64,000 nt of DNA. It comes from Halomonas beimenensis (lineage in GTDB: Bacteria > Pseudomonadota > Gammaproteobacteria > Pseudomonadales > Halomonadaceae). Of the stretch, positions 25,221 through 28,266 are shown piece by piece. The notes beneath the pieces were generated by a model. The model saw nothing but the letters and a program-made list of their open reading frames with translations. It ran no database searches and was not told the DNA's origin. Made by a program: the position numbers and the translations under genes. Position 1 is the stretch's first letter; every line of letters begins with the position of its first letter. The DNA lies in contig NZ_CP021435.1 of NCBI RefSeq assembly GCF_002549795.1, forward strand, positions 1,984,001 to 2,048,000, written 5' to 3'.

Positions 25221-27119
25221 TTATAACCGCTCGGCCCGCACCTTGTCGATGAAGGCGTCCACCGGCAGGGTGCCGAGATCCTCACCCTCGCGGGTACGGA
25301 CGGCGACCGAGTCGGCCTCGACTTCCTTATCTCCCACCACCAGGAGATAGGGGACCTTCTGCAACGTATGCTCGCGGATTTTAAAGCCGATTTTCTCGTT
25401 CCTCAAGTCCGCCTTGACGCGCAGGCCGATTTTCTGCAGGCGCCGCTCGAGCGCCAGGGCGTAATCGCGCTGGGCGTCGGTGATGTTGAGGATCGCCGCC
25501 TGCTGGGGAGCCAGCCACAGCGGCATGGCGCCGGCATGGTGCTCGATGAGGATGCCCAGGAAGCGCTCGAAGGACCCCAGGATGGCGCGATGCAGCATCA
25601 CCGGCGTCTTGCGGCTGCCGTCCTCGTCGACGAATTGCGCCCCGAGCCGGCCCGGCAGGTTGAAGTCGAGCTGCAGGGTGCCGCACTGCCAGACCCGGTT
25701 GAGGCAGTCGCGCAGCGAGAACTCGATCTTGGGCCCGTAGAAGGCCCCCTCCCCCGGCTGCAGCTCCCAGTCCAGGCCGGTCGCATCCAGCGCCGCCTCC
25801 AGGCCCGCCTCGGCGCGATCCCAGAGCGCCGCCTCACCCATGAAGTCGTCCGGGCGGGTCGACAGCTTGAGCTCCACGTCCTCGAAGCCGAGATCCTTGT
25901 AGACCTTGAGGGTCAGGGCGATGAAGGCCTCGGCCTCGGCCTGGATCTGCCCCTCGGTGCAGAAGATGTGGGCGTCGTCCTGGGTGAAGCCGCGCACCCG
26001 CATCAGGCCATGCAGCGAACCGGACGGCTCGTTGCGGTGGCAACTGCCGAACTCGGCCAGGCGCAGCGGCAGGTCGCGATAGCTCTTGAGCCCCTGATTG
26101 AACACCTGCACGTGGCAGGGACAGTTCATCGGCTTGACCGCGTACTCGCGCTTCTCCGACTCGGTGGTGAACATCAGCTCGCTGTAATGCCCCCAGTGCC
26201 CGGAGGCCTTCCAGAGCGAGAGGTCCACCACCTGCGGCGTCTTGATCTCCTGATAGCCGTTGTCGATCTGCACCCGGCGCATGTACTGCTCGAGGGCCTG
26301 GTACATGGTCCAGCCATTGGGGTGCCAGAAGACCATGCCCGGCGCCTCCTCCTGGAGGTGGAAGAGGTCCATCTTCTTGGCGAGCTTGCGGTGATCGCGC
26401 TTCTCGGCCTCCTCCAGGCGCTTCAGGTAGGCCTTGAGCTGCTTCTTGTCGCCCCAGGCGGTGCCGTAGATGCGGGTCAGCATCGGCCGCTCGGCATCGC
26501 CGCGCCAATAGGCGCCGGCCAGCTTGGTCAGCTTGAAGGCCTTGAGGTGCCGGGTGTTGGGCACGTGGGGCCCCCGGCACATGTCGGTGTACTCCTCGTG
26601 ATGATAGAGCCGGATGGTCTCGCCGTCGGGGATCTCGCGGACGATCTCCTGCTTGTAGGGTTCGTCCCGGTGCAGGAAGGTCAGCATCGCCTTGTCCCGG
26701 TCGACGTATTCGCGGACCACGTCATAGCCCTTCTCGATCAACGCCTTCATGCGCTGCTCGATGGCCTCGAGGTCCTCCGGCGTCGCCGCACGACCGAAGT
26801 CGATGTCGTAGTAGAAGCCGTCCTCGATCACCGGGCCGATGGCCATCTTGGCGTCGGGATACAGCTGCTTGACCGCATGGCCGATCAGGTGGGCGCAGGA
26901 GTGACGGATGATCTCGAGACCTTCGGGGTCCCGGGCGGTGATGATCGCCACCTCGGCGTCGTGGTCGATGACGTCAGCGGCATCCACCAGCTCGCCGTCG
27001 ATGCGCCCGGCCACGCAGGCCTTGGCCAGGCCGGCACCGATGCTCTCGGCCAGCTGCATCACGGTAAGCGGTTCGTCGAAGGTTCTCTGGCTGCCGTCCG
27101 GCAGGGTCACGATGGGCAT
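25221..27119 (-). CDS. thrS: Threonyl-tRNA synthetase
   Basis: A 632-residue class II synthetase. Domains: TGS (residues 1-60, [22 protein letters not shown]), editing domain with [23 protein letters not shown] near residue 70, catalytic core with [10 protein letters not shown] (zinc Cys) and [19 protein letters not shown] (motif 2), and a C-terminal anticodon-binding domain. AAGGAAA precedes the ATG. A hairpin just upstream imitates the tRNA-Thr anticodon arm (separate entry), suggesting the translational autorepression known in E. coli. Confidence 0.97.
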
Positions 27120-27145
27120 GATGAAGCGTTTCCTTGTGCGCAGTG

Positions 27146-27166
27146 GTGATCCATACCAAGGATCAC
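27146..27166 (-). promoter_or_regulatory. thrS translational operator: tRNA-Thr anticodon-arm mimic
   Basis: On the minus strand GTGATCC-TTGGTAT-GGATCAC forms a perfect 7-bp stem with a seven-base loop. The loop reads U, U, GGU, A, U, so U33 is followed by GGU, the anticodon of tRNA-Thr that reads ACC. It ends 26 bases before the thrS ATG and ten bases before the AAGGAAA ribosome site. E. coli ThrRS represses thrS by binding a comparable anticodon-like stem-loop there. The role here is inferred from that. Confidence 0.7.
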
Positions 27167-27382
27167 GTGTCGCCAGAAAGAATGGTCGGGGGCACGGGCC
27201 CGGACAGGGCGGCGGCAGACGCCCGCTCGCCGAGGCCGCGGTTCGACGCGGCATCCCATCGGCACAGGCTCCGTGGAATCCTCCCGCGGCGGCAACGGCG
27301 CGACGGCCGATGCGCAGCCCGGGCCGTAAAGCGCCGTCTAGCCTAGCAAAGCCGTCCCCGTGGCGCCATGGGAGGCAGCACG
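27167..27382. other. Upstream part of the thrS leader
   Basis: GC-rich non-coding DNA between the OmpA-lipoprotein terminator and the thrS operator hairpin. TTTGCTAGGCTAGACGG on the minus strand (about 27335-27352) may be the promoter region. Several GC-rich inverted segments occur at 27180-27260, but no second clear tRNA-like arm could be drawn. Confidence 0.4.
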
Positions 27383-27406
27383 AAAAGAGGCGCCCGAAGG
27401 CGCCTC
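27383..27406 (-). terminator. Rho-independent terminator of the OmpA-family gene
   Basis: GAGGCGCC-CGAA-GGCGCCTC is a perfect 8-bp stem with a tetraloop, followed on the minus strand by four U residues. It lies about 50 bp after the OmpA-family stop. Confidence 0.8.
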
Positions 27407-27453
27407 CGTGGGGGGTCGCCGCCGGCGAAGGGGCGGCGGGCCTCAGGCGGGGA

Positions 27454-28266
27454 TCATTCCCACTCGCCGAGTTCGACGCGGCGGTTCTGGGCCCGGCCGG
27501 CGTCGGTCTCGTTGCTGGCCACCGGCTGGGACTCGCCATAGCCGACGGTGCGCATGCGATCGCGGTCGACCCCCTGGGCGGCCAGGTAGTCGGCCACGGA
27601 ATCGGCTCGGCGCTGGGACAGATCCTGGTTGTAGGCCTCGCTGCCCACGGCATCGGTGTGGCCCTCGATGCGGACGCGGACGTTCTCGTTGGCGATCAGC
27701 TTGTCGGCGACGCCATCGAGGATCTGCTCGGCCCCCATGGTCAGGGTGGCGGAGTCGAACTCGAAGTTCACGTCACGCAGCACCAGGTCTTCCACGCAGC
27801 CCAGCGCGTTGACCTCGGCGCCGGCCGGAGTGCCCGGACACTGGTCCTGGTAGTCCGGCACGCCGTCACCGTCGGAGTCCAGCGGACAGCCCACGGCGTC
27901 CACGGCCACCCCGGCCGGGGTACCCGGACACTGGTCGTTGGCGTCGATCACGCCGTCACCGTCGGTGTCCCGCGGAGCCGGGGCCGGCTTGTCCGGCTCG
28001 GCGCACAGGAAGGCCCCGATGGCGGCACCGGTGGTCCCGCCGATGGCGGCCCCCTGGTCCTCGTCGGAATCGCTGCTGGCGGCGTAGCCGATGCCGCCGC
28101 CGATCAGGCCGCCGGCGAGACCGCACACGGTGGGGTGCTGGTACCAGGCACGGTCGGAGGAGGCGCTTTCCCCCATGCCGGACGATTGGGAGGCCGAGCT
28201 GGCACAGCCGGTCAGGCCGACCACCAGTGCGGAACCAAGCAGCAAGCCAGTCGTAGATTTCTTCAT
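27454..28266 (-). CDS. OmpA-family outer-membrane lipoprotein with TSP3 repeats
   Basis: A 270-residue putative lipoprotein. The signal peptide ends in lipobox LTGC (Cys21). A glycine-rich segment with [14 protein letters not shown] and [12 protein letters not shown] follows (residues 45-90). Next are two calcium-binding thrombospondin type 3-like repeats ([18 protein letters not shown] and [18 protein letters not shown]), then an OmpA C-terminal peptidoglycan-binding domain ([34 protein letters not shown]). It probably tethers the outer membrane to the wall. AAGGAG precedes the ATG at 28266; an ATG eight codons earlier lacks this fit. Confidence 0.9.

Follow-up and report, generated by a model that had tools for sequence, protein, structure and literature searches.

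Does the thrS leader of Halomonas beimenensis carry an operator of the kind through which Escherichia coli threonyl-tRNA synthetase (ThrRS) controls its own mRNA, and does the triplet in its anticodon-like loop mean that a particular threonine isoacceptor is being copied? Reviews and a further paper, in the passages that touch on this system, describe E. coli ThrRS as binding two hairpins, domains II and IV, and blocking the 30S subunit, with tRNA-Thr as competitor (PMC9976931, PMC11088916, PMC7373986, PMC6542539, PMC3858243), and four of them treat both domains as mimics of an anticodon arm (PMC9976931, PMC11088916, PMC7373986, PMC6542539). Review passages also describe binding of anticodon-arm mimics in mRNA by yeast AspRS and HisRS, and yeast ThrRS is reported to bind RPC10 mRNA (PMC9956033). 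These cases are alike in that a synthetase binds an anticodon-arm mimic in mRNA, for which we claim no homology, and they differ in being eukaryotic and in lying at other places in the mRNA or acting on another target gene.

We analysed a 64,000-nt stretch of the H. beimenensis genome (hereafter the window), in which an anticodon-like hairpin had been predicted ahead of thrS. The hairpin is a real and conserved arm, and its kind is already known from E. coli. That part of the original prediction which saw an operator arm of the E. coli kind in the thrS leader is supported; the part which saw a meaningful switch from CGU to GGU is not.

An anticodon-like hairpin before thrS

The gene thrS, which is both the regulated gene and the source of the proposed repressor, occupies 25221..27119 on the minus strand (start codon 27119-27117) and encodes a threonyl-tRNA synthetase of 632 aa (TIGR00418 thrS equivalog, 746 bits). 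The protein aligns over its full length to E. coli ThrRS (1qf6; phmmer E=2.6e-280 across residues 1-630), and both the anticodon-binding and the N-terminal domains are present. The latter is needed for repression in E. coli, according to the relevant passage of one review (PMC7373986).

On the same strand, 27146..27166 form a perfect 7-bp stem (GUGAUCC/GGAUCAC) that closes the loop UUGGUAU, with GTGATCC at 27166-27160, TTGGTAT at 27159-27153 and GGATCAC at 27152-27146. Given tRNA numbering, the loop reads U32 U33 G34 G35 U36 A37 U38, so that the anticodon-like triplet GGU lies at 27155..27157 (G34 at 27157, G35 at 27156, U36 at 27155). The order towards the gene is GTGATCC-TTGGTAT-GGATCAC-CACTGCGCAC-AAGGAAA-CGCTTCATC-ATG: the hairpin ends 10 bases before AAGGAAA, the Shine-Dalgarno sequence (27129..27135), and 26 before the start codon. 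Stem, loop, numbering and the ten-base spacing are all as originally predicted, and the range then given, 27129-27166, comprises hairpin, spacer and ribosome site. Among 37 leaders of the Halomonas group, AAGG or AGGA starts 9-11 bases past the stem in every one.

Across both strands of the whole window there are 46 perfect Watson-Crick hairpins with seven pairs and a seven-base loop (23 per strand). U33-NGU occurs in two of them and U33-NGU-A37 in one, that of the thrS leader. If G-U pairs are allowed, the number of hairpins rises to 238, with U33-NGU in four and U33-NGU-A37 still in one.

In the predicted fold, the stem stands on a lower helix (GCG/CGC plus CA/UG), and between the two is an internal loop in which a single base faces CAC. 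The 5' flank GCGACAC (27167..27173, minus strand) would contribute GCG and CA to the lower helix as its 5' strand, leave a single A bulged, and place C27167 across from CAC; the 3' flank CACUGCGC (27138..27145) would supply the CAC side of this 1x3 internal loop (27145-27143) and then the 3' strand of the helix (UG, CGC). The stability of the folded leader (83 nt) is ordinary (z = -0.67; 51/200 shuffles were equally or more stable). Fold energy is uninformative here; the evidence for the element is comparative. At the Rfam gathering score the sole match within the window is a tRNA, and no T-box leader was found; nor did Rfam report a family for the thrS leaders of the window and three other loci (L097, L098 and L109, the last two being enterobacterial with an arm of the E. 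coli type).

Conservation and covariation among relatives

We read 140 thrS leaders, taken from relatives' loci (at least 80 fetched from named genomes) and from two further fetches; L130, L140 and L143 gave no leader. Two genomes are represented twice among the 140 (L009/L031, L029/L033), and three of the leaders belong to second copies of thrS (L139, L141, L142). The duplicates L031 and L033 were left out of the ThrRS tree, the Halomonas-group counts, the second-arm survey and the promoter count, and were kept in the scored, loop-blind and tail-blind selections. Because our first selection score rewarded both NGU and a CACTG tail, the claims of invariance rest on two selections that ignore one or the other.

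The loop-blind selection, which uses the stem and 3' tail only, picks 113 of the 140 leaders, and G35-U36 is present in 112 of these (the exception, L075, has the loop GCGTTCC). Position 34 of the same 113 is G in 80, C in 24, A in 8 and U in 1. Without L031, L033, L139, L141 and L142, the selection takes 112 of 135 leaders, 111 with NGU. The tail-blind selection, which uses the stem and U33-NGU and ignores the flanks, takes 110 of the 140 leaders (66 distinct elements), and among these 66 the flanks are nearly fixed: A on the 5' side in 64 and, on the 3' side, C in 64, A in 62, C in 65, U in 63 and G in 57.

An alignment of the 66 distinct elements (A1) has 97.3% of cells paired, and eight of nine pairs have changes on both sides. 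None of 500 shuffles was as good on any of five measures, and structures slid along the alignment pair in 28-49%. Elements at the extremes keep the fold with other letters (AUGAUUG/CAAUCAU in Psychrobacter, AUGCCCC/GGGGCAU in Acinetobacter). Outside the stem, column A5 of the 5' flank is invariant, as are C28 and C30 on the 3' side, and pair 4-32 is CG, UG or GC in 61 of 66 elements. The stem covariation and constant NGU that had been proposed as a check on the arm are present, and these, together with the position before thrS, agree with the claim of an anticodon-arm mimic placed as it is in E. coli.

ThrRS is present in all 58 related genomes, and N575, K577, E600 and R609 of the E. coli enzyme, which we take to contact the anticodon, are identical in 110/110 proteins (both duplicate genomes kept in). 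The sequence in PDB 1kog, presumably the ThrRS-operator complex, is the same as that of E. coli ThrRS. Some genomes have a second full-length ThrRS gene, 56-63% identical (L139-L143; G024, G007, G052, G053, G047), and the five stretches upstream of the duplicated genes (L139-L143) contain no convincing operator match, the 10.5 bits of L141 being at chance level.

Distribution of the element

A covariance model (R1) was built from the 66 distinct elements of A1. It gives 47.5 bits to the window element, which is among its training sequences, and 42.2 bits to the E. coli leader (L253), which is not, its near relative L109 being included. Of 58 relatives, 55 match at E<=0.5, and 53 at E<=1e-6. 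Across the class, 143/369 genomes and 116/272 genera match at E<=0.05, and 226/369 genomes have no match; because searches over 40 genomes used stricter filters and lost weak matches, such absences are upper bounds.

The strong matches are placed almost exclusively before one gene. Setting G000 and G056 aside, 112 class matches were entered at E<=1e-5; 111 of them precede thrS by 4-43 nt, and the last falls on a thrS start at the end of a contig (L237). All entered class matches, a tally with just three of the listed matches above E=0.01, number 136, of which 123 precede thrS; these come from 122 genomes, and adding G000 and G056 gives at least 124 of 369. As judged from sequence and placement, the thrS operator arm is found across many gammaproteobacterial genera.

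The 118 elements from 116 loci of the class sample have C34 in 72, G34 in 31, A34 in 8 and U34 in 7, and G35 and U36 in all 118, which is partly built in, the elements being model-selected. An alignment of 96 distinct class elements (A2), taken from 99 of the 116 loci, has 95.7% of cells paired, with double changes at four of nine pairs, and leans to the model structure, having been chosen and aligned with the covariance model; its count of double changes was matched by 20/500 shuffles and its covariation score by 0/500. The 17 loci outside A2 scored lower and have the same GU.

Beyond these, the leaders seen in Methylococcales and betaproteobacteria have no element (five of them also by model search). 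A sample of 200 genomes from the phylum yields 33 with a match at E<=0.001, of which 31 belong to the same class. The two from outside it (G504, G545) were rejected as operators: both lie inside a long open frame which, by eye, we take to be glutamate synthase.

A wider ThrRS regulon was also considered and rejected. Eleven entered matches at E<=0.01 are not before thrS, and eight of these were examined (G068, G320 and G122 were left out). They comprise the thrS start at a contig end (L237), a leader copy (L234) and six matches inside open frames, so that no regulon appeared among the eight examined. The L234 copy (G361:C18, 980-1035) is nearly identical to the same genome's thrS leader (L297), with one mismatch over the operator; it is intergenic, follows a tRNA-like 3' fragment (no tRNA is called there) and has no thrS behind it. 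It is probably a duplicated relic.

Since the hairpin adjoins the Shine-Dalgarno sequence, and the predicted fold lets AAGGAA pair with a nearby upstream UUCUUU, it might be a plain hairpin (a standby structure, thermosensor or mRNA stabiliser) in which ThrRS has no part. We find this scarcely credible: it leaves unexplained both a G35-U36 that is fixed amid changing stem letters and the place of the strong matches before thrS.

Position 34 and the choice of isoacceptor

The operator reading having been preferred, there remains the claim that this arm copies a different isoacceptor from that of E. coli. If the loop were an isoacceptor-specific sensor, thrS of H. beimenensis would answer to tRNA-Thr(GGU), unlike the CGU of E. 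coli; and UUGGUAU does resemble the loop of this bacterium's tRNA-Thr(GGU), UUGGUAA, from which it differs in one of seven bases. The comparative record argues strongly the other way. The element occurs in 37 of 38 sampled Halomonas-group genomes (including Halomonas sp. A11-A), conserved there as predicted, and is GGU in 28 and CGU in 9. On a FastTree phylogeny of ThrRS (87 labelled rows), position 34 requires at least 13 changes, with G, C, A and U all occurring, and G35-U36 stays fixed. Eight CGU Halomonas form a supported subclade beside GGU ones, so that neighbouring clades differ at this position, and GGU as a trait of Halomonas is rejected.

Moreover, A34 is present in 8 of the 113 loop-blind leaders, and to our knowledge an A34 tRNA-Thr is not expected in these bacteria. 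In six A34 genomes, a rough pattern for an AGU loop fell on the anticodon of none of the listed tRNAs, a weak point, being judged by eye against an incomplete tRNA list; one match runs into the end of a tRNA listed for the opposite strand. On these grounds, an isoacceptor-specific sensor appears highly improbable. Because position 34 varies and the tRNA-Thr genes of H. beimenensis include GGU, UGU and CGU alike, G34 seems best read as the product of drift, at a site with which ThrRS can dispense, and not as a choice of isoacceptor.

The one Halomonas-group genome without the element, that of Halomonas sp. NO4 (L009 = L031), keeps the 3' half with a broken stem and has no R1 match, a sign that species of this genus can lose such control. 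The element is also present in Larsenimonas (L048) and in two genomes from other genera of the family (G328, at 1.5e-5, and G421).

The likely promoter and the number of arms

The likely thrS promoter is marked by an extended -10 element, TTTGCTAGGCT, at 27340..27350 on the minus strand, recognized from a pattern in relatives' leaders. This pattern, TyTGnTAnnn(T/G), was set after viewing the leader alignment; upstream of the operator it has exactly one occurrence in 36 of 37 Halomonas-group leaders (the remaining leader offers no more than 82 nt there), and it has none on the stored strand of 49.3 kb of mostly thrS coding sequence. Both promoter and terminator were assigned from alignment and by eye, and a generic sigma-70 and terminator scan of 26800-28200 gave neither. 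If the promoter is correctly placed, the thrS leader of the window would be about 210 nt. From -10 element to operator, the distance is 32-47 nt in 19 of 36 leaders, 63-133 nt in 16, and 170 nt, the longest, in the window; given the short distances, many Halomonas seem to fit one arm only.

Several features of this interval were observed in passing. The stretch between promoter and operator (27173-27340, minus strand) exceeds that of the relatives L002-L004 by about 120 nt, and near 27220 there is, by eye, a seemingly degenerate second copy of promoter-like sequence. Between thrS and the upstream gene, which we take to be OmpA-like, lies a terminator-like hairpin, GAGGCGCC-TTCG-GGCGCCTC-TTTT (27383-27407, minus strand; seen by eye and unlisted by the scan), and relatives have a comparable hairpin with AGGCGCC. 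In L126, L237 and L249, thrS is preceded at a short distance by a gene for tRNA-Val(GAC), and by eye L071 and L079 seem to have a similar arrangement.

Second arms are present in other leaders. The 209 upstream segments surveyed contain 124 hairpins with a 7-nt loop and at least six pairs, and 35 of these have GU at 35-36, against 7.9 expected from the background rate; the 35 come mostly from related Pseudomonas, hence are not independent, and three look false (promoter sequence in L023 and L028, a terminator in L090). The listed Pseudomonadaceae-type leaders number 24: 22 named Pseudomonas, L118 and Halopseudomonas (L034). In 23 of these, all but L034, a second hairpin precedes the main arm by about 48-64 nt; where candidates tied, the count took the one with GU, and L055 has five of six pairs. 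The loop of the second hairpin varies at 32, 33, 34, 37 and 38, with G35-U36 constant. The stem of this hairpin (L036-L047, L049-L057, L072, L118) is mostly CCTGCC/GGCAGG with an NGU loop.

Seven Halomonas leaders have in common a predicted three-way junction with the loop N-G-U-A (N being A, G or C), and double changes occur in 4 of the 43 pairs predicted for the whole leader; another seven were compared by alignment alone. The second arm differs in shape, lying within a predicted three-way junction in some Halomonas and forming a simple hairpin in Pseudomonas. The main element occurs in tandem copies in L073, L131, L124/L251 and L245.

Could the window hold a full two-arm operator whose second arm has diverged too far to be seen? 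Its leader is long enough, and the arms of E. coli, of the Pseudomonas leaders and of the seven Halomonas leaders offer precedents, but between the element and the promoter GTA does not occur, nor does any loop of 6-8 nt that contains GT and is closed by at least five pairs, and in 19 of 36 Halomonas-group leaders the 32-47 nt available leave little room for such an arm. We regard a hidden second arm as unlikely, and the window operator seems to consist of one arm only.

Discussion

The closest known counterpart of the hairpin is domain 2 (H2) of the E. coli thrS operator. The E. coli record before thrS reads UUUGUA-U-GUGAUCU-UUCGUGU-GGGUCAC-CAC-UGCAAA, and its loop does imitate CGU, as had been supposed. 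Both arms have a 7-nt loop with U33-NGU, a 7-pair stem and one base opposite CAC, and both stand before the Shine-Dalgarno sequence of the same gene, thrS. They differ in that the window has GGU and not CGU at 34-36, A37 and not G37, a stem that is perfectly Watson-Crick, and a lower helix of GCG/CGC plus CA/UG where E. coli has UUUGUA/UGCAAA. With the whole E. coli operator (four domains, two of them anticodon-like arms), the window leader has in common its proposed role, its adjoining ribosome site and a pyrimidine-richer stretch upstream of the arm; E. coli has two arms, whereas no second arm was found in the window.

Place in the leader, the 7-nt NGU loop, a homologous structure that takes in the E. 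coli leader, and the domains of ThrRS all assign the hairpin to domain 2. The arm of domain 4 was not found between the window element and the promoter, and for want of it we file the hairpin as a homologue of domain 2 and not as the full two-arm form. Very probably this hairpin serves thrS as the operator to which ThrRS binds, as a homologue of E. coli domain 2. The primary work on that operator reportedly includes Moine (1988), Romby (1996) and Torres-Larios (2002), among others. Titles and openings of abstracts from a full-text literature search, in which most of these primary papers did not figure, contain no thrS operator outside E. coli, and a prior description is possible.

What we observe directly is an element of conserved structure with a fixed GU, situated just before thrS in many genera, together with a ThrRS whose candidate contact residues are conserved. 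ThrRS binding, repression and competition by tRNA in Halomonas we infer by analogy with E. coli. Free ThrRS would bind the arm through its C-terminal anticodon-binding domain, reading G35 and U36; once bound, it would deny the 30S subunit access to the ribosome site next to the arm; and abundant tRNA-Thr would compete for ThrRS, such that the mRNA would be freed.

With regard to how such operators are assembled, we hold, with confidence evenly divided, that one conserved arm may be the base of a widespread gammaproteobacterial autocontrol by ThrRS, to which NGU arms of unrelated shape have been added in several lineages (E. coli, Pseudomonas and a clade of Halomonas), other Halomonas, including that of the window, being single-arm. 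Selection would then act on those features of the arm that ThrRS recognizes, G35-U36 and possibly also the internal loop with CAC, and would not favour any one isoacceptor.

Covariation and the fixed GU carry a control known as a textbook case in E. coli to many genera, and a covariance model is now available for an element for which Rfam reported no family in the window or at three other thrS loci. The comparison separates the features of the mRNA that are fixed (G35-U36 and the CAC internal loop) from the one that is free (N34). In addition, the leaders with one arm, those with two, and the Halomonas species whose arm is broken offer natural experiments.
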